Both the position numbers and the translations under genes were made by a program. 64,000 nt of DNA from Halopiger goleimassiliensis (GTDB lineage Archaea > Halobacteriota > Halobacteria > Halobacteriales > Natrialbaceae): assembly GCF_000455345.1 (NCBI RefSeq), contig NZ_HG315690.1, positions 2,245,360-2,309,359 on the forward strand, in the 5' to 3' direction. Every line of letters begins with the position of its first letter. The first letter of the stretch is position 1. Shown piece after piece: positions 41,511 through 49,358 of this stretch. The notes under the pieces are model-generated. The model searched no databases and was not told the DNA's origin. It was given only the letters and a program-made list of their open reading frames with translations.

Positions 41511-41626
41511 TCGACCGCCGGACTCGAGTCCAAACCGTCTTTGTCGGGGGTGTCCTACGCTCGAGTGGCCGATGACGACGCACCCGCTCCGAGCCGGACT
41601 CGGCACCCGGTGACGACGAGCCCTAT

Positions 41627-41640
41627 GAGTGCCGAGGCCA
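41627..41640 (+). repeat. GAGTGCCGAGGCCA, copy 1 (left junction candidate)
   Basis: The same 14 bases recur at 53030-53043 and 55203-55216 in the same orientation. This copy lies exactly where high-GC DNA on its left changes to low-GC DNA on its right. It may be an attachment-site core of the integrated element. Confidence 0.5.
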
Positions 41641-42005
41641 GCTTTCTATCCATACATTTACGAGAAGAAGTGAACGAACGTCATAGAATCGCGTCTGCTA
41701 CCCTCTGCGGGAGGACAGTCGTAATCAAAAGGCGAATAGAGTACACTCTGAGGCGTCACATGGGCATAGTCACTCATCGACCTCTCAGAGAAGACCGTGA
41801 TTGACCGGATGAACGTGGGGATAGATGTACTGGACATACACTTCGACAAATGTTCGGAACGGGTGAAGCTGGAAAAGCATCGGTTATACCTCGAAGACAC
41901 CTAATCATCCGTCACAGATATCACAGGTTATTTTTGACTTGTTATTGCAAATCAGAGCACAGAGTTTCTTCACTAGATCAAGCATTTAATTCTGCTAGTC
42001 TCTAA
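41641..42005. other. Degenerate intergenic region at the left end of the accessory segment
   Basis: GC falls sharply here. From 41772 to 41904 (plus strand) one frame without an ATG reads like real protein, including KTVIDRMNVGIDVLDIHFDK and ending RLYLEDT at a TAA. It is probably a fragment of a decayed gene, perhaps a transposase, but I cannot assign a family. The AT-rich stretch 41905-42000 includes CATTTAATTC, a TATA-like element for the next gene. Confidence 0.4.
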
Positions 42006-43025
42006 GTGGAACTGGTAGTTAATACTTTTAGGAAGGATTTTGTAGCATCTATCGTGAGTTCGACGGTCGACATCTATTCGGAAACATCGGGTGAATTGGT
42101 GAACGAAGATACAGGTTTTCTCAGTAACGTAGGTGACAACCTCGAGTTCGAGATCGACAACGTCTACATCGCTAAACGAGGTGGAGGAGAGGACAGTTAC
42201 CTGAACGGATCCTATTTCGAATTCGACCTGGATCGCCGTGCGATGCACGATGAGAAGGTCATCGCACCCAAACCAGTACAAGAGATCGTTCAGTGGTGTG
42301 CTCCCGATATCATTCTCGTAGTCGATGAGGAACCGGTCCTTTCAGTTGAGACGACATACCACGAACTTACCTACAATAATATCGCCCAACGCATCCCTCG
42401 GCAGGTAAAGCCAGCCATGGAAGGCGTACCGAGCGTAATCTTCCAAAAGGTCGAGTCATATGATACAGACACGGCATATCTCACGTGGTTTGCTGAAACC
42501 TTCCGGAAAGCAAACCAGATCTACGATCCACCGTGCCTCGCCCTCATGTTTACCGAAGAGGATCATGACGAGAAAGCTGATCGACTCGCTAATCTCTGTA
42601 ATTGGGCGGTCAACAGTAACCAGAACGGATCGATGGAGACTGTCACACAGACAGTCGAAGACATCGCTTCAGATTTTGACCCCGAGTCTATCCTCAAAAC
42701 AAAGAACGGACGACGACGGAGCTGGATTCGGGTTGACAACGATTATGTTACCTCAATACCAGGCCCAAATCCAGATCGGCAAGGATGGCGGACAAAAGGA
42801 ACCGGGAATCTCGACCCGTATCCAGGCATGGCGAAGATGTCAGAGATACTCTTCGCATATAACGAGGAAGGTGAGAAAATCCGCGATCTTCGTATATTCT
42901 TCCGAAACCTCCCGAGCGACTTCTGGTGGTTCCAGGAGAACGAAGACGAACTATATTATCGCTTGATGAAGGAATTCGCAGACGAACTCTACTACGCTGA
43001 TCAGAGCGACCAAATCGACGTGTAG
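42006..43025 (+). CDS. Putative restriction-endonuclease-like protein
   Basis: A 339-residue soluble protein starting at GTG 42006. A PD-(D/E)xK-like core is suggested by CAPDIILVVDEEPVLSVETTYHE, a PD followed by a hydrophobic strand and an acidic residue. A conserved-looking NNIAQRIPRQVKPAMEGVPS stretch follows, similar to blocks in several endonuclease-like families. The catalytic Lys would have to be replaced by Thr (ETT), so activity is uncertain. The gene is the first of four (two nuclease-like, two DNA methyltransferases) and has lower GC than the chromosome. A restriction role is inferred from motif plus context. Confidence 0.6.
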   Translation: MELVVNTFRKDFVASIVSSTVDIYSETSGELVNEDTGFLSNVGDNLEFEIDNVYIAKRGGGEDSYLNGSYFEFDLDRRAMHDEKVIAPKPVQEIVQWCAPDIILVVDEEPVLSVETTYHELTYNNIAQRIPRQVKPAMEGVPSVIFQKVESYDTDTAYLTWFAETFRKANQIYDPPCLALMFTEEDHDEKADRLANLCNWAVNSNQNGSMETVTQTVEDIASDFDPESILKTKNGRRRSWIRVDNDYVTSIPGPNPDRQGWRTKGTGNLDPYPGMAKMSEILFAYNEEGEKIRDLRIFFRNLPSDFWWFQENEDELYYRLMKEFADELYYADQSDQIDV

Positions 43026-43111
43026 ACCTCAAACCACGCGGTGGTTCTTGTATAGTCATATAAGCAAGAGGGAAAGACGTATGCTATTCGTGTCCCACTT
43101 TTCGGGGAGAC

Positions 43112-43546
43112 GTGATACGTCGAACTCAATCCCTAGCGATCCGCGAAATCAAGATTTGGTTGGAAGACCACAACCATGACGTGTTATATACTGATCAACC
43201 TGGTAGCAGTCGTGGGGGTATCGGCGATCGAGCAAATCTGAATCTAGCTTTCGAGCATCTGTATGATCGTACTCCAGATATCGTCGCGATAGACGCTGAC
43301 AACAATCTCGTCATTGTAGAGGTCGACAAGCGGTTTGACGAGGCTTTGGAAGAGAAATTCAATTTGTACTACAGTAAGCGCGATGCTCTCCTTGAACGAC
43401 TCGGGGACGAACTCAATCGAGAAATTACTGGGCTCATCTTCGGATTTGGAACTTGGAATACATCTCGACCAGAAGTTGACACTCAATATGATCCGTTCTA
43501 TCGGTTCTATTTACGCGAGGAAGACGCGAGGGCAGTGAGAGTCTGA
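43112..43546 (+). CDS. Small PD-(D/E)xK nuclease-like protein
   Basis: A 144-residue protein from GTG 43112, preceded by a GGGGAG ribosome-binding sequence. The centre reads TPDIVAIDADNNLVIVEVDK, a PD then E-x-D-K arrangement on a strand, matching the core of small PD-(D/E)xK nucleases such as VSR- or Holliday-junction-type folds. The N-terminal helix (AIREIKIWLEDHNHDVLYTD) is compatible. It ends 58 bp before a methyltransferase gene on the same strand. It may be the cleavage or repair partner of that modification system. Confidence 0.6.
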   Translation: MIRRTQSLAIREIKIWLEDHNHDVLYTDQPGSSRGGIGDRANLNLAFEHLYDRTPDIVAIDADNNLVIVEVDKRFDEALEEKFNLYYSKRDALLERLGDELNREITGLIFGFGTWNTSRPEVDTQYDPFYRFYLREEDARAVRV

Positions 43547-43604
43547 CCACCATATCACAATTTATATTCGATGACGCAGATATCGTTTCTGGTAAGGACT
43601 TAAT

Positions 43605-44771
43605 ATGGAGTTCGAGACTCTCGACGAGAAAGATTGGAGCACGATAAAGGATAGCAGTAGTAAAGAACTCACCCACGATATTCACCCGTACTTTGCTAAG
43701 TTCTCACCAGAAATCCCTCGTTACCTGATTCGAGAATATACCGACGAAGGAGATGCTGTCCTCGATCCTTTCAGTGGTTCTGGAACTACTCTAGTTGAGA
43801 GCTTATCCCTGGGACGCAATGCGATCGGTGTAGACGCAAATCCACTCGCCTGCTTGATTGCTAAAGTAAAAACAACGAAGCTTCAAGATGGCGACCGTCG
43901 CCTCACCCGAGAAGTCATCTCTGATATATCGACAGATGTCAATAGCCTATACGGTCAACAAAATCTCCTCGGCAAGTCGTTCGAGGAGCCTGAGATACCG
44001 GAATTCCATAATAGAGACGACTGGTTCAATAAAAACGTACAAAAAGAGTTAGCAGTCATCAAACGGCGGATTGAGAAGGTACAGAATGAACGAGTATACG
44101 ATGTTCTACGTATCGCCTTCTCTCGAATTATTGTTGGTGTTTCAAACCAGGATAGTGAATCACGATATACGCAGGTAGAGAACGACATAGATAACAAAGA
44201 ATGCCTTGAGAGGTTCACTGAGCAGGCAAATCATATTCTGGATAAGCTTCGAAGTCTTGAGGCAGAAGTGCCCGAGTCGGTTGAGGCCGAGATCTACAAT
44301 GAGGACTCACGAGAGATGGAAGGCGTCCCGAGTGATTGTGCAGATTTCGTCGTTACGAGTCCACCGTATCTCAACTCTTGGGACTACGGGCTGTATCATA
44401 AGTTCCGATTCAAGTGGCTCGACTTGGACGTGGACACGTTCAATCAGCGTGAGATCGGGCGTCATCTCCGACGTAAGGGCGACAAAGTCAGCAGATACAG
44501 GAACGATATGTCCGCTGTTCTAGGAAACGTCGCACGGGTTCTCCGTGATGATGGATGTGCTGTCATCGTAAACGCTACTTCTGTCGTTGATGGTGAACAC
44601 ATCGATACAAACGAGATTCTTATCGAAGAAGCCCAGAAACACGGCCTTACATTAGGGAATTCGGTGAGCAAAGAAGTATACGGGCCTCACTTTGGAATGC
44701 GGGCAAATAGTGATAAAATGGAAGAAAATCAAAAAATCGAAAAGATGCTCGTGTTTCACGAGGAGGACTGA
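43605..44771 (+). CDS. DNA methyltransferase, N4-cytosine type (first of a pair)
   Basis: A 388-residue SAM-dependent DNA methyltransferase. Motif X-like HDIHPYFAKFSPEIPRYLI is followed by the SAM-binding motif I, LDPFSGSGTTLVESL, and later by catalytic motif IV, VVTSPPYLNSWDY. TSPPY is characteristic of amino-methylating enzymes, most often m4C. The order X-I-IV places the target recognition region between or after these motifs. Codon use is AT-richer than the chromosome. The stop at 44769-44771 is one base from the stop of the second, convergent methyltransferase. Confidence 0.9.
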   Translation: MEFETLDEKDWSTIKDSSSKELTHDIHPYFAKFSPEIPRYLIREYTDEGDAVLDPFSGSGTTLVESLSLGRNAIGVDANPLACLIAKVKTTKLQDGDRRLTREVISDISTDVNSLYGQQNLLGKSFEEPEIPEFHNRDDWFNKNVQKELAVIKRRIEKVQNERVYDVLRIAFSRIIVGVSNQDSESRYTQVENDIDNKECLERFTEQANHILDKLRSLEAEVPESVEAEIYNEDSREMEGVPSDCADFVVTSPPYLNSWDYGLYHKFRFKWLDLDVDTFNQREIGRHLRRKGDKVSRYRNDMSAVLGNVARVLRDDGCAVIVNATSVVDGEHIDTNEILIEEAQKHGLTLGNSVSKEVYGPHFGMRANSDKMEENQKIEKMLVFHEED

Positions 44772-44772
44772 A

Positions 44773-46236
44773 TTAGGCCTGTAGAATGAGTACTGTTTCG
44801 TAGTCGATCTTCCCGCCGGTACTTCGTCGACCGGTTTGCAATTGCACCTTTCGATAGTAGTGTTTGAAATCCGTAACAGAATCGAAGCCAACGCTCTCAG
44901 CGATCGAGCTTAGGTACTTTGCTGTCGGAATGTACTCGTTCCGAATTTCGTTGTCACCGACAACAATGACACAGTAGGCGTCCTCCTTCAGAACGCGGTT
45001 AAGCGACTCAAATGCTTCTTCCATCCCCGTGAAGTACTGATAGAGGATGAATGCTCGAATCTTGTCTTTCCGTTCGCCCTTCTCGAATATTTTCTTGATT
45101 TGTCCGTCAATCGATTCGTATCCAGTCAGACGCAGCTCGTCATAGTAGTCCTTTGTAACTGCCCGCTCGGTCATTCCGACGTATTCCCGTCGATGCTCCT
45201 TATAGGAGTCTTGATCGAAGAAATCAAGAAAGATGAGACTTCGTCTATGAGCCATCGTGTAGTCGATAGCGTTGATGTACGGTGGCGAAGTGACTACGAG
45301 ATCAACCGAGTTCTCTTCAAGTGACTGAGTCCGTGCGTCCTCCCCGACTACTTTAGAGAAAAGGCCGTCGCCTCCACACTTCTTAGCAAACTCGACGGCG
45401 CCTCGCTGATTCTTCTCGACAGTGCTCTCGAATAGATCAATGGTTTCCGGAAGTCCATCTTCGAATTTATCTTCGTCTTTTCGGACCTTGATCTGGTTCT
45501 CATCTTGATACGAGACAGTATCGACGATTGAAGAAAGGTTGATTAAATAGAATTTTTCTAACAGCTCCCGGTTCTGCTCTGAGATCTCAACAGGTGGATC
45601 AAAATTCAGAATATGGCGCTTGATCTTCACTAAATCCGCAATCGCCTGTTCTGGGAACCAAAAGTCCCAGTTAATCGGCGGGTTGAAATATTCGTTCTCG
45701 TCAGTCAGTTCCTCCTCAGTCGTATCGTTTCGAATGTTGGACAGTAGCTTTCGAGAACACGCTTTTAGACGTGCAGGATCCTCCGGGAAGAGCGGATTAC
45801 TCTTCACTTCAGCCATCATCTGGGCTAATGGACTGATGTCCGTGCCGTATGAGTTAAGTCCACACAATCGGGCTTCGACCATCGTCGTTCCACAGCCCAC
45901 GAATGGATCGTAAACCGTATCTCCTTGATCTAATTCTGCTAGACGAAATGCCCAGCGTGGTATCTGAGGAACGAATTTGGCGGGATACGTGTGCATTCCA
46001 TGCGTGTAGTCAGTAACTTCGTCACCGACACTGTCGGCGAATGTTATGCCCTCGATCCTGGATAATCCCTCAGTTGGGAATTTATATACTTCCAATACCT
46101 CATCAGTGTTGATTTTTTGCTCTGCCTGACCAGATTCTCCTAGAAATCCCTCTAAGCTAGTCTGTTGAGATCCACCTGAGACAGCGTCTTTGAGATCGAT
46201 TGATTTACTGATATCGTAGTCATCACTTCGTGGCAT
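44773..46236 (-). CDS. DNA methyltransferase, N4-cytosine type (second of a pair)
   Basis: A 487-residue DNA methyltransferase with the same layout as its neighbour: motif X-like THGMHTYPAKFVPQIPRWAF, motif I VYDPFVGCGTTMVEARL and motif IV VVTSPPYINAIDY. A longer central region (residues 170-310) is probably for target recognition. A good ribosome-binding sequence (GGAGG) lies nine bases before the ATG at 46236. Two different methyltransferases in one system usually modify the two strands of an asymmetric site, which is the most likely explanation here. Confidence 0.9.
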   Translation of the reverse strand: MPRSDDYDISKSIDLKDAVSGGSQQTSLEGFLGESGQAEQKINTDEVLEVYKFPTEGLSRIEGITFADSVGDEVTDYTHGMHTYPAKFVPQIPRWAFRLAELDQGDTVYDPFVGCGTTMVEARLCGLNSYGTDISPLAQMMAEVKSNPLFPEDPARLKACSRKLLSNIRNDTTEEELTDENEYFNPPINWDFWFPEQAIADLVKIKRHILNFDPPVEISEQNRELLEKFYLINLSSIVDTVSYQDENQIKVRKDEDKFEDGLPETIDLFESTVEKNQRGAVEFAKKCGGDGLFSKVVGEDARTQSLEENSVDLVVTSPPYINAIDYTMAHRRSLIFLDFFDQDSYKEHRREYVGMTERAVTKDYYDELRLTGYESIDGQIKKIFEKGERKDKIRAFILYQYFTGMEEAFESLNRVLKEDAYCVIVVGDNEIRNEYIPTAKYLSSIAESVGFDSVTDFKHYYRKVQLQTGRRSTGGKIDYETVLILQA

Positions 46237-46237
46237 T

Positions 46238-46387
46238 CTACGAATCCTCCTGTTGCCATCGACTGTTTTTTGCTTTCACCGTGCGATACTTCACGAAATT
46301 TTTTCCTCGCATCACGATGCTTTGTGCTCCGTCTTGAACCTTATAATTACCAGAAGTAATCGTTGGGGTAGAAGTGATTGATTTCAT
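46238..46387 (-). CDS. Possible 49-residue basic protein upstream of the second methyltransferase
   Basis: A short frame (MKSITSTPTITSGNYKVQDG...) ends one base before the methyltransferase ATG and contains that gene's ribosome-binding site. It is basic with a Lys/Arg-rich middle (MRGKNFVKYRTVKAKNSRW). It could be a leader peptide or a small control protein, or simply chance. A start at 46432 is also possible. Confidence 0.3.
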   Translation of the reverse strand: MKSITSTPTITSGNYKVQDGAQSIVMRGKNFVKYRTVKAKNSRWQQEDS

Positions 46388-46764
46388 ATTCGGAGATCGT
46401 CGATTGTGAGGATACTTCTGCACTGTATTCAAGAATTGTCGCCCCCGACCAGATAAAGGTATATATGTATCTTACCTCAGGAGAGCGAATTAGACAGCGG
46501 TCACCAGAGTCGACTAACTGAGGTTGCAGTCGAACAGACTGCACAGTTAGTCTATGAACGCAGATCAAAGAGACTCCGACAAGACGCGGTTTCGTGGCGA
46601 TGTGGTGAGGAATACATCGAATAGCACCTCAACTCGCAGAGACAGGCATCTCTTGACGAGACAACGAACTAGTCGCAGAACAGGTATCACTCTGAAATAA
46701 CGGAATCCCGATTGCTACGAGTCTCGATTTCCGGAATAGCGTAGTCCGATGAGGTGCTGCTTCG
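46388..46764. other. Low-GC intergenic region
   Basis: No convincing gene. The sequence holds an AT-rich stretch with TATATATG (about 46460-46470), likely a promoter for the minus-strand methyltransferase operon. No repeats or RNA genes are recognised. Confidence 0.4.
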
Positions 46765-47202
46765 TTACTTTTTGTCGTGAGTCAGGAGATCAACAAGTAC
46801 CTCCGAGTCACAGTCGTATGGGCTCGGGAGCGCGTCTACGAAGGCCCGCACGAATCCTTCGGTCCCCGGATCGACAACGATCTCGGCGTCGGCGTGAACT
46901 GTCTCACCATTCTCGTAGGTCGTAGGCACGAGCACGGGAACTCCCTCTTCAAGATACTCTTGTGAGACATCGTGTAATGCGTCACTCTCCGTATCGAGGT
47001 TTCCGTTCGTATCAATCGTCCCGACGACCTTGCCCTGATCATGATTAATTATCTCGACCTCTACAGCCTCATGCTCTTCGTCCTTCGTGTGCTCTTGTGC
47101 CGCCTCCGCGATTGCCCACCCGAAGTCCTCTTCCATCCACCGCACGATCTCGGCAGAGTCAGCATCAGGGAGTGGGCGTTCCGGTTGGTTTGATTCGTCC
47201 AT
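46765..47202 (-). CDS. Acidic hypothetical protein
   Basis: A 145-residue soluble, very acidic protein starting MDESNQPERPLPDADSAEIV. The first half is helical (WMEEDFGWAIAEAAQEHTKDE), the middle beta-rich (EVEIINHDQGKVVGTIDTNG), and the end FVRAFVDALPSPYDCDSEVL. No catalytic motif is visible. It belongs to the accessory segment, downstream (minus strand) of a small partial-looking gene. No function is proposed. Confidence 0.6.
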   Translation of the reverse strand: MDESNQPERPLPDADSAEIVRWMEEDFGWAIAEAAQEHTKDEEHEAVEVEIINHDQGKVVGTIDTNGNLDTESDALHDVSQEYLEEGVPVLVPTTYENGETVHADAEIVVDPGTEGFVRAFVDALPSPYDCDSEVLVDLLTHDKK

Positions 47203-47245
47203 GGTAGTATATTATTCTTGTCTATATTTAGTCGCTGGTGATGTT

Positions 47246-47476
47246 TTACTCGTCGCCTCTGAGTGCCCATAGCGCCATGTCGAGCCTGCGAAGACTCACG
47301 TCGTACTCGTTCGCGATCGCCCAACATGCTCCGAGAGACAGTAAGTAGTCCTCATCAGTCGGGTTATCGGGCATCTCGTCGGGTAAATACCCGTTCTCGT
47401 GCAGCACGTCCCACGCCTTCCAGTCGAGAACGGTGACGCGGCCTGGATTCATAAACAGGAGAAATGCAGACCCCAC
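47246..47476 (-). CDS. Short protein, probably a 5'-truncated remnant
   Basis: A 76-residue frame with no ATG; GTG 47476 is the only usable start before an upstream stop. The sequence FLLFMNPGRVTVLDWKAWDV and CWAIANEYDVSLRRLDMALW looks like the C-terminal half of a helical protein; the NPxRVTVLDWxAW pattern recalls HhH-GPD-like glycosylase ends, but this is weak. The region just upstream is AT-rich, so either a truncated gene or a small intact gene is possible. Confidence 0.45.
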   Translation of the reverse strand: MGSAFLLFMNPGRVTVLDWKAWDVLHENGYLPDEMPDNPTDEDYLLSLGACWAIANEYDVSLRRLDMALWALRGDE

Positions 47477-47546
47477 GAGATAGACTACTTTAGATTTTAT
47501 TTCATTTTTCCGACATAATCATCGCACTATCGGTGCGATATCCTCT

Positions 47547-47816
47547 ATGCGATACTCCACTCGTTGGATGACTATCTGCGACGAGCGTATCCTCGAACGT
47601 CTATCGGAGGTCGAGACAGACAGGCAGAAAGGCATGGCTGACAGTGGGGACGTACGCTTCAATTGGAAGTACATCGGAGAGCGTTATCGAAAATTGACTG
47701 ACTACGGGATGCTCCAGCATCTCGGCAATGGTGTTTATCGAATCACAGAAGTCGGAGAGCAGTATCTTGAGGGCGAGGTTGATGCAGAAGAGCTCGAATC
47801 CGACGAATCGGACTAA
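47547..47816 (+). CDS. PhiH1-repressor-like winged-helix DNA-binding protein
   Basis: An 89-residue winged-helix protein. The pattern RWMTICDERILERLSE, then IGERYRKLTDYGMLQHLGNG and VYRITEVGEQYLEGE, is that of the haloarchaeal phage PhiH1 repressor family: helix, recognition helix, then a beta wing. Such proteins regulate mobile-element genes. The gene has an AT-rich promoter region at 47480-47520 shared with the divergent small gene at 47246. The acidic tail EELESDESD is typical of haloarchaea. Confidence 0.82.
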   Translation: MRYSTRWMTICDERILERLSEVETDRQKGMADSGDVRFNWKYIGERYRKLTDYGMLQHLGNGVYRITEVGEQYLEGEVDAEELESDESD

Positions 47817-47921
47817 TGAACGGCTGTCCCTTATTGTAGACCGAAGAGACTCGCGCGAGAAGCGAGAGCAACAGGACCTCCCGAGGGATACATCGGAACG
47901 AACGAGGAATCGCAGAGACGG

Positions 47922-48446
47922 TTAGTCTACCGTATCAAAAAATTCGCGAGCTTCGTCGGGCGATAGGGGTGCTTCAAAATCTGGATTATCCGCGCTCAGT
48001 TCCGATGGGTCGCGCCATCGGCTCTCGATATCCGGCGGTTCGTCCAATCCACAGTCTGAGCCTGGTCTGACGAGCTGGTATTTCTTTTCGCCCGTTCCAG
48101 TGTGTTTCCAACCTCTGCCTCCGCGTGACCCTTCAAACGGAATCCAGATTCCCGTTGTATCTTCCACCCCATTATCAGTCATACTCAACGTCCTCACTCC
48201 TTCTACTGGACCGTGTTCCTCACGATACGATTCGGGATCTCGTCGGTACTGATGGCGAGCCCGAGCCCATTCGTGCAGCTTGGCCCGTTTTTTCTTCGAC
48301 TTCTCCTCGGCCCGACGAATCTTCGGTGGTTTGTACTCTTCACTATCTCGCCTTGCCTTGCGACGAAGATAGGCCTCCTCTTTGTACTGTTCCTCCTTTC
48401 GCATCATCTTCCACTTGTCCGAGAGGGACTGGTTCCACGAACTCAT
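47922..48446 (-). CDS. Hypothetical protein with a highly basic helical N-terminus
   Basis: A 174-residue protein. Residues 1-85 are unusually rich in Lys/Arg/Glu (YLRRKARRDSEEYKPPKIRR, EEKSKKKRAKLHEWARARHQ) and probably form a long charged helix able to bind nucleic acid. The second half contains a GSRGGRGWKHTGTGEKKYQ stretch and an acidic end. Such basic composition is unusual in a haloarchaeon. No family is recognised. ATG 48446 is preferred to TTG 48449. Confidence 0.6.
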   Translation of the reverse strand: MSSWNQSLSDKWKMMRKEEQYKEEAYLRRKARRDSEEYKPPKIRRAEEKSKKKRAKLHEWARARHQYRRDPESYREEHGPVEGVRTLSMTDNGVEDTTGIWIPFEGSRGGRGWKHTGTGEKKYQLVRPGSDCGLDEPPDIESRWRDPSELSADNPDFEAPLSPDEAREFFDTVD

Positions 48447-48968
48447 CAACGGGGGTTAGTGACCACCGTAGATAACGTGTACGAGCCAAAAATGACCCCG
48501 CATTTAGGAAGAGAATGTAACATGGCATTGAATAGGATGCTGTGTTCTCCACCCCGTCGACACCCGGCCGGATCGAGTTTTTTACTAGCTACATACGTAG
48601 CTAGCTTTTTTAGCTGTATACGATAGAGAAGTAGTGATTGTAGAATCGTATAGGGGATGTCAACCATATTTCTCCTACACCCGTCTTCCCACTCGTTGTT
48701 AAATAGCTCAAACCTATCTAACGAAAGTGTCTAACGTCTAAGCAATAGCAGAGAGGAGCTGATGGAACACACGGACCCATAGTAACGAACGCGAGCACGC
48801 CACCTTGCTCTTCGGTCTCCGCGAGGCGAACGCAGAGGCAACGACTCGGACTAGTAGAGAGACCGGTCACGAAGCGAGAAGGTGAACCTCTATATCGGCG
48901 ATTTAAGCAGATTTGAAATATGATTTTCTTTCACCAAGCCTACTAGCGACTTCCCCGAGCGCCACGGC
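48447..48968. other. Intergenic region with a perfect inverted repeat
   Basis: The region has no credible gene. A perfect inverted repeat CTAGCTAC-ATAC-GTAGCTAG lies at 48585-48604, followed by CTTTTTTAGC; it may be a terminator or operator. Much of the remainder is low-GC with stop codons in every frame. Confidence 0.4.
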
Positions 48969-49358
48969 ATGCCTGTCCACTACTACCAGACGTGTGGTGC
49001 AGAGCTTGACGACAACGCCTCGTACTGTCCCGAGTGTGGTACTGTAGTCAGGGATGGCCACAACATAGACGCAGGCGACGACACGACCTCAAAGGACAGC
49101 GACCCATGGGACTGGTCAGACCCGCGGGCCCCGGTTCAGTCACCTCGTCACGTCGTTGGCTCCTTGAATCTCCTTGGTTTCGTCTCGTTCCTGCTCGCCA
49201 TTGGTCTCAACGCGGTGGGTCTGCCTATCACCGCGCTCCCGCATCCTATCCCTATCGCCCTATTCGCTTTCTAGGCGGGCGTCCTAGTGGTCGGGCTGGC
49301 ACCCTGGTGCCTCCTGCACGTCACCGGCAACGTTATCGGATTCTTCAAACCCAAATAA
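48969..49358 (+). pseudogene. Zinc-ribbon membrane protein interrupted by an in-frame TAG
   Basis: The frame begins MPVHYYQTCGAELDDNASYC with a second CPEC pair. This is the common haloarchaeal N-terminal zinc ribbon, except that the first Cys of the usual YCxxCG is Tyr. A hydrophobic region follows (LLGFVSFLLAIGLNAVGLPI). After FAF, a TAG at 49272-49274 interrupts the frame, which then continues for 27 codons with sensible membrane sequence (AGVLVVGLAPWCLLHVTGNV) and ends at TAA 49356-49358. This looks like a recently inactivated gene; a truncated product is possible. Confidence 0.7.

Follow-up and report, generated by a model that had tools for sequence, protein, structure and literature searches.

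The 64,000-nucleotide stretch of Halopiger goleimassiliensis DNA analysed here (the window) carries four adjoining genes, named A, B, C and D, which most likely form a complete, mobile Type II restriction-modification (R-M) cassette belonging, like BtsI and BsrDI, to the heterodimeric Type IIS/IIT enzymes; against viruses it would cleave foreign DNA while marking that of the host. This reading is based on gene content, homology, synteny, the conservation of the block as a unit and purifying selection, and in fact DNA methyltransferase genes are physically linked here to nuclease genes, as is characteristic of a Type II R-M system. An earlier note, made from the letters alone, had proposed an R-M system probably acting on an asymmetric site, and this part of it is well supported. 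The complex of A and B, the division of the two strands between them, the methylated base and a site shared with the methyltransferases are all predicted. The features are as follows, with strands in brackets.

41779-46467 (no strand assigned): whole conserved cassette, 86-87% in blastn over about 4.7 kb against Halorientalis pallida (L031) and Halapricum hydrolyticum (L012/L030)
41779-41904 (+): C-terminal stub of a tyrosine integrase gene, 41 codons and a stop, found by tblastn with the L012 integrase
42054-43025 (+): A, putative large nuclease subunit, 323 aa, from a 7-homologue alignment, hhalign, PADLOC via homologues and fold matches to BsmI
43112-43546 (+): B, putative small nuclease subunit, 144 aa, from an AF2 model and hhalign against a B-like family
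43605-44771 (+): C, amino-methyltransferase, 388 aa, from Pfam N6_N4_Mtase and PADLOC MTase_II
44773-46236 (-): D, second amino-methyltransferase, 487 aa, from Pfam N6_N4_Mtase, PADLOC MTase_II and BLASTP against C

All four open reading frames are present where they had been placed before, in the order A, B and C on the forward strand and D on the reverse. Motifs and coordinates bear out the two methyltransferases described as convergent, with X-I-IV order, TSPPY and stops one base apart, the single base being 44772. Both of the frames described as encoding proteins of 339 and 144 residues exist as well, while the first of them is shortened: it had been opened at 42006, and its start is moved to the GTG at 42054, which gives 323 aa, because this GTG is common to all three copies of the cassette; 5' of it the reading frames of the three copies open at different places. 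The cassette lies on the left margin of an island of low GC content, about 47-56% from 42 to 58 kb compared with mostly 63-71% to the left, and its predicted proteins are acidic, with pI 4.3-4.9; the masses of A and B are 37.3 and 16.9 kDa.

When a five-sequence alignment of A was scanned against 84,980 genomes, near-identical copies were found in Halorientalis pallida F13-25 and Halapricum hydrolyticum, and the near homologues all fall within Halobacteria. Outside the block of 41779-46467, DNA comparison reveals sequence that is unrelated or more diverged between the window and both other copies, and beyond the integrase end little else is common to the window and H. pallida apart from the four genes. 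For pairs among the three copies, A, C and D give dN/dS values of 0.05-0.07 and B gives 0.08-0.11; B also diverges faster (amino acid identity 85-90% versus 92-95% for the other three), and none of the four genes has a frameshift or stop in any copy. Since dN/dS is as low as 0.05-0.11 in every gene, all four encode proteins maintained by strong purifying selection; together with the keeping of the block as a unit in three genera, this argues for a functional cassette that moves between haloarchaeal genera as one unit. Among haloarchaea it is rare: of the 391 genomes sampled from the class, a close A together with B is present in 2, the window's own and one other.

On its left side the block begins with the C-terminal part of a gene for a tyrosine integrase; the stub in the window is 66% identical to residues 310-350 of the H. 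hydrolyticum integrase (tblastn, E 4e-11). The same integrase is intact in H. hydrolyticum (L012, Pfam Phage_integrase) and frameshifted in H. pallida (L031). Just left of the island and the stub lies an sR-tMet C/D-box guide RNA gene (41567-41639), and a search for a second copy of this gene as an integration-site repeat gave only matches of 14-15 bases. Moreover, between window 46666-49345 and L012 7069-11492 the island genes, for acidic small proteins and a zinc-ribbon protein, are about 70% identical, and a D5-type helicase gene is also present in this L012 region, which suggests that the window island and the H. hydrolyticum element are related integrated elements. No relatives of A, B or C turned up in scans of IMG/VR, and these gave no sign of a viral source.

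The two nuclease subunits are of unequal size with D and E conserved in both, on which their catalytic sites are predicted. In A the core consists of P84 and D85, 13 residues and then E99-T-T, with no Lys at E+2; the positions invariant in a seven-sequence alignment include P84, D85, E99, N109, Q112, R113, R116 and a C-terminal DPY.G. Genome searches revealed homologues of A, of 319-416 aa, in seven other haloarchaea and also in one Acidobacteria MAG and one Alphaproteobacteria MAG, and the window-type A aligns with the archaeal homologues, which are linked to m5C methyltransferases, with an hhalign probability of 97.8% over the core. Four of the haloarchaeal homologues match the PADLOC profile PDLC03392, 'Type II nicking endonuclease' (E 1.9e-6 to 0.0046), while the window A itself does not match it, and the link runs only through homologues that are 21-30% identical overall. 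Searches of Pfam, NCBIfam, PHROGs and PDB sequences gave no convincing match for A or B; a plasmid tblastn with A and two homologues gave no match, and no homology is detectable between A and the family of B. Fold matches of A have to be taken with care because its AF2 model is of low confidence, with a mean pLDDT of 49 and about 52-72 in the core. The best four in PDB are all BsmI, with probability 0.84-0.98 and E 0.02-0.1, the next falling to 0.38, and the BsmI match is only suggestive.

The core of B consists of D56, 13 residues and then E70-V-D-K73, with the Lys one position off, and both D56 and E70 are kept in all three copies. Its AF2 model has a mean pLDDT of 76 and finds many PD-(D/E)xK nucleases among its PDB neighbours; SdaI, archaeal NucS/EndoMS and Nt.BspD6I appear there with modest scores (best E 0.0075). 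A comparison by hhalign of the window-type B with the B-like family found beside A homologues was not significant with the first set of sequences; after more sequences were added, its score of 29.4 was above all of 100 column shuffles (maximum 22.1), with the relation being remote at 15-22% identity and 37% probability. With D and E conserved in both and the fold of B, the two smaller proteins do look like nucleases of the PD-(D/E)xK type, as had been suggested.

The methyltransferases C and D are paralogues with 28% identity (BLASTP), and both have the motif order X, I, IV, with HDIHPYFAKF, DPFSGSGT and TSPPY in C and HGMHTYPAKF, DPFVGCGT and TSPPY in D. Both match Pfam N6_N4_Mtase above its cut-off (9.8e-23 for C, 9.5e-14 for D), and each matches many PADLOC MTase_II models (5.7e-59 and 1.5e-57, respectively). 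The TSPPY motif is usual in N4-cytosine enzymes, without being a proof of the modified base; with TSPPY and DPF.G.GT in both, C and D are probably m4C-type amino-methyltransferases. Their closest relatives on plasmids include pairs of tandem methyltransferases that adjoin a phospholipase-D-type nuclease in Roseibium, Rhizobium and Methylobacterium, a gene content which we take to be that of BfiI-type systems. At 33-36% identity to C and 25-27% to D, these rank with the nearest relatives that have two methyltransferases, although the nuclease is unrelated and the pairs are tandem there whereas C and D are convergent. Such pairs therefore serve more than one kind of nuclease.

Around the relatives of A and B a different arrangement is found. 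At every locus checked, in haloarchaea (L013-L019), the Acidobacteria MAG (L032) and the Alphaproteobacteria MAG (L035), an A homologue is followed by a small PD-(D/E)xK protein of 144-175 aa related to B, in which the D...ExK core is kept as ECK, ELK or ESK, and the two always adjoin a DNA methyltransferase, which is a single m5C enzyme. These triads thus have homologues of both window nuclease genes, the large one followed by the small one as here, but have one m5C methyltransferase, HhH-GPD-fused in some loci, in place of C and D; no Pfam family covers their nuclease parts. Several of them have a winged-helix gene upstream. The m5C methyltransferases at L018 8456-10297 and L019 8439-10703 end in an HhH-GPD base-excision domain, so that a methyltransferase and a glycosylase-like repair domain are combined in one chain; the L018 fusion also has an EndoIII-type iron-sulphur motif. 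At L013 7055-8368 (genome G353), the two nuclease genes are separated by a TnpB-type gene on the opposite strand, which encodes a Cas12f1-like TNB domain. It is possible, though less likely than not, that A and B represent a two-subunit nuclease family without Pfam or NCBIfam entry, present in archaea and bacteria and coupled interchangeably to an m4C-type pair or to a single m5C methyltransferase, and that the window version, which lacks the canonical catalytic Lys in either subunit, has an altered active site.

A described arrangement with which the cassette can be compared is that of BtsI, where the large subunit BtsIB recognises GCAGTG and nicks the bottom strand, the small subunit BtsIA is inactive alone and contributes the cutting of the top strand, and two methyltransferases act, one per strand (PMC2909958). 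From concentrations given there both in mg/ml and in uM, masses of about 37.8 kDa for BtsIB and 18.6 kDa for BtsIA follow, and the BtsIB motif is published as P57, D58 and E72 with no Lys named (PMC2909958). The absence of the usual catalytic Lys from A, to which the earlier note drew attention, is confirmed, but it is not anomalous, because the BtsIB motif likewise names only P, D and E. The further suggestion in that note of a new type of system is not supported: a large and a small nuclease with two strand-specific methyltransferases is the arrangement already described for BtsI and BsrDI (PMC2909958, PMC4081073), as Type IIS/IIT. What remains most novel is the association of one A/B pair with two different methyltransferase arrangements, together with the lack of a canonical Lys in both subunits of the window version.

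In view of the match to BtsI in gene number, subunit sizes, D-to-E distance and absent Lys, a model can be proposed for the window cassette. A is predicted to bind an asymmetric DNA sequence and to nick one strand via its PD-(D/E)xK site. B, a small PD-(D/E)xK-like nuclease, would by itself have little or no DNA specificity and would cut the opposite strand only when bound to A, so that the pair would break both strands at the site or right next to it. In the host chromosome this site would be methylated by C on one strand and by D on the other, probably at N4 of cytosine, which would block cutting there by A and B. In favour of this reading are the keeping of the four-gene block as a unit under low dN/dS and the recurrence, in the archaeal and bacterial sequences, of an A-family gene followed by a putative small nuclease gene beside a methyltransferase; the PADLOC nicking profile reached via homologues, the PD-to-E spacing, the subunit sizes, the paired methyltransferases and the weak BsmI fold match point to it as well. 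Against it, the window A stays below the PADLOC profile and its model is poor, B is very remote from its relatives with its Lys displaced, and A/B relatives elsewhere pair with a single m5C methyltransferase, not with two amino-methyltransferases.

Part of this evidence might also be read as A alone being the restriction enzyme, as a homodimer or a single chain, with B an accessory or regulatory protein of degenerate nuclease fold. The off-register Lys in E-V-D-K and the faster divergence of B fit such a role; however, B keeps D56 and E70 in every copy, its partners elsewhere retain the D...ExK core and follow A at every locus checked, and in BtsI and BspD6I it is the small subunit that provides the second cut, so we regard this explanation as unlikely. 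That C and D could be a BfiI-like unit, with A and B a separate modification-dependent or independent defence module adjacent by chance, is brought to mind by the plasmid relatives of C and D, which stand in tandem beside a phospholipase-D-type nuclease and not beside A/B-like genes. Such an accident is very improbable considering that the four genes stay together as a single block across three genera, that little more than the integrase end is shared with H. pallida besides, and that A/B homologues always adjoin a DNA methyltransferase. Still less credible is a decayed cassette in which restriction is dead and the methyltransferases persist as orphans: A without the canonical Lys and B with a displaced one would suit it, but A and B have dN/dS values almost as low as those of C and D in every pair, and no frameshift or stop has accumulated in the three copies.

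As a probable heterodimeric Type IIS/IIT system, the cassette seems to extend the small group of restriction enzymes with a natural strand-specific nicking large subunit by an archaeal branch adapted to salt, and strand-specific nicking enzymes are useful tools. Moreover, the same nuclease pair is found with different kinds of methyltransferase, two m4C-type here and one m5C elsewhere, and a whole R-M cassette moves between haloarchaeal genera beside an integrase. The terms Type IIS, IIT, heterodimer and asymmetric do not occur in a survey devoted to R-M systems of archaea (PMC10609329), and the heterodimeric Type IIS/IIT kind therefore seems little noticed in archaea.

Among the known enzymes, BtsI, BsrDI and BspD6I are placed by a review in Type IIT, whose systems generally have two methyltransferases (PMC4081073). 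The window cassette resembles BtsI and BsrDI in a large subunit of about 37-38 kDa, predicted to recognise the site and nick, in a small subunit of about 17-19 kDa, predicted to act on the second strand, and in two methyltransferases, and the D-to-E distance in the large subunit is 14 both in A (D85-E99) and in BtsIB (D58-E72); this likeness is drawn from published descriptions, sizes and motif spacing. It differs from them in being archaeal, in its acidic halophilic proteins and in the convergent C and D. BsmI and Mva1269I are single-chain Type IIT enzymes with two catalytic sites for separate strands, and for BsmI separate top-nicking and bottom-nicking mutants exist; in spite of the fold matches, weak as the model of A is, they have one chain of about 670 residues where the window has two subunits. 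Nt.BspD6I/BspD6I likewise combines a large nickase with a small subunit, and Nt.BspD6I also appears among the PDB neighbours of the B model, whereas the BspD6I large subunit has 604 aa with an N-terminal DNA-binding domain and gives no sequence match.
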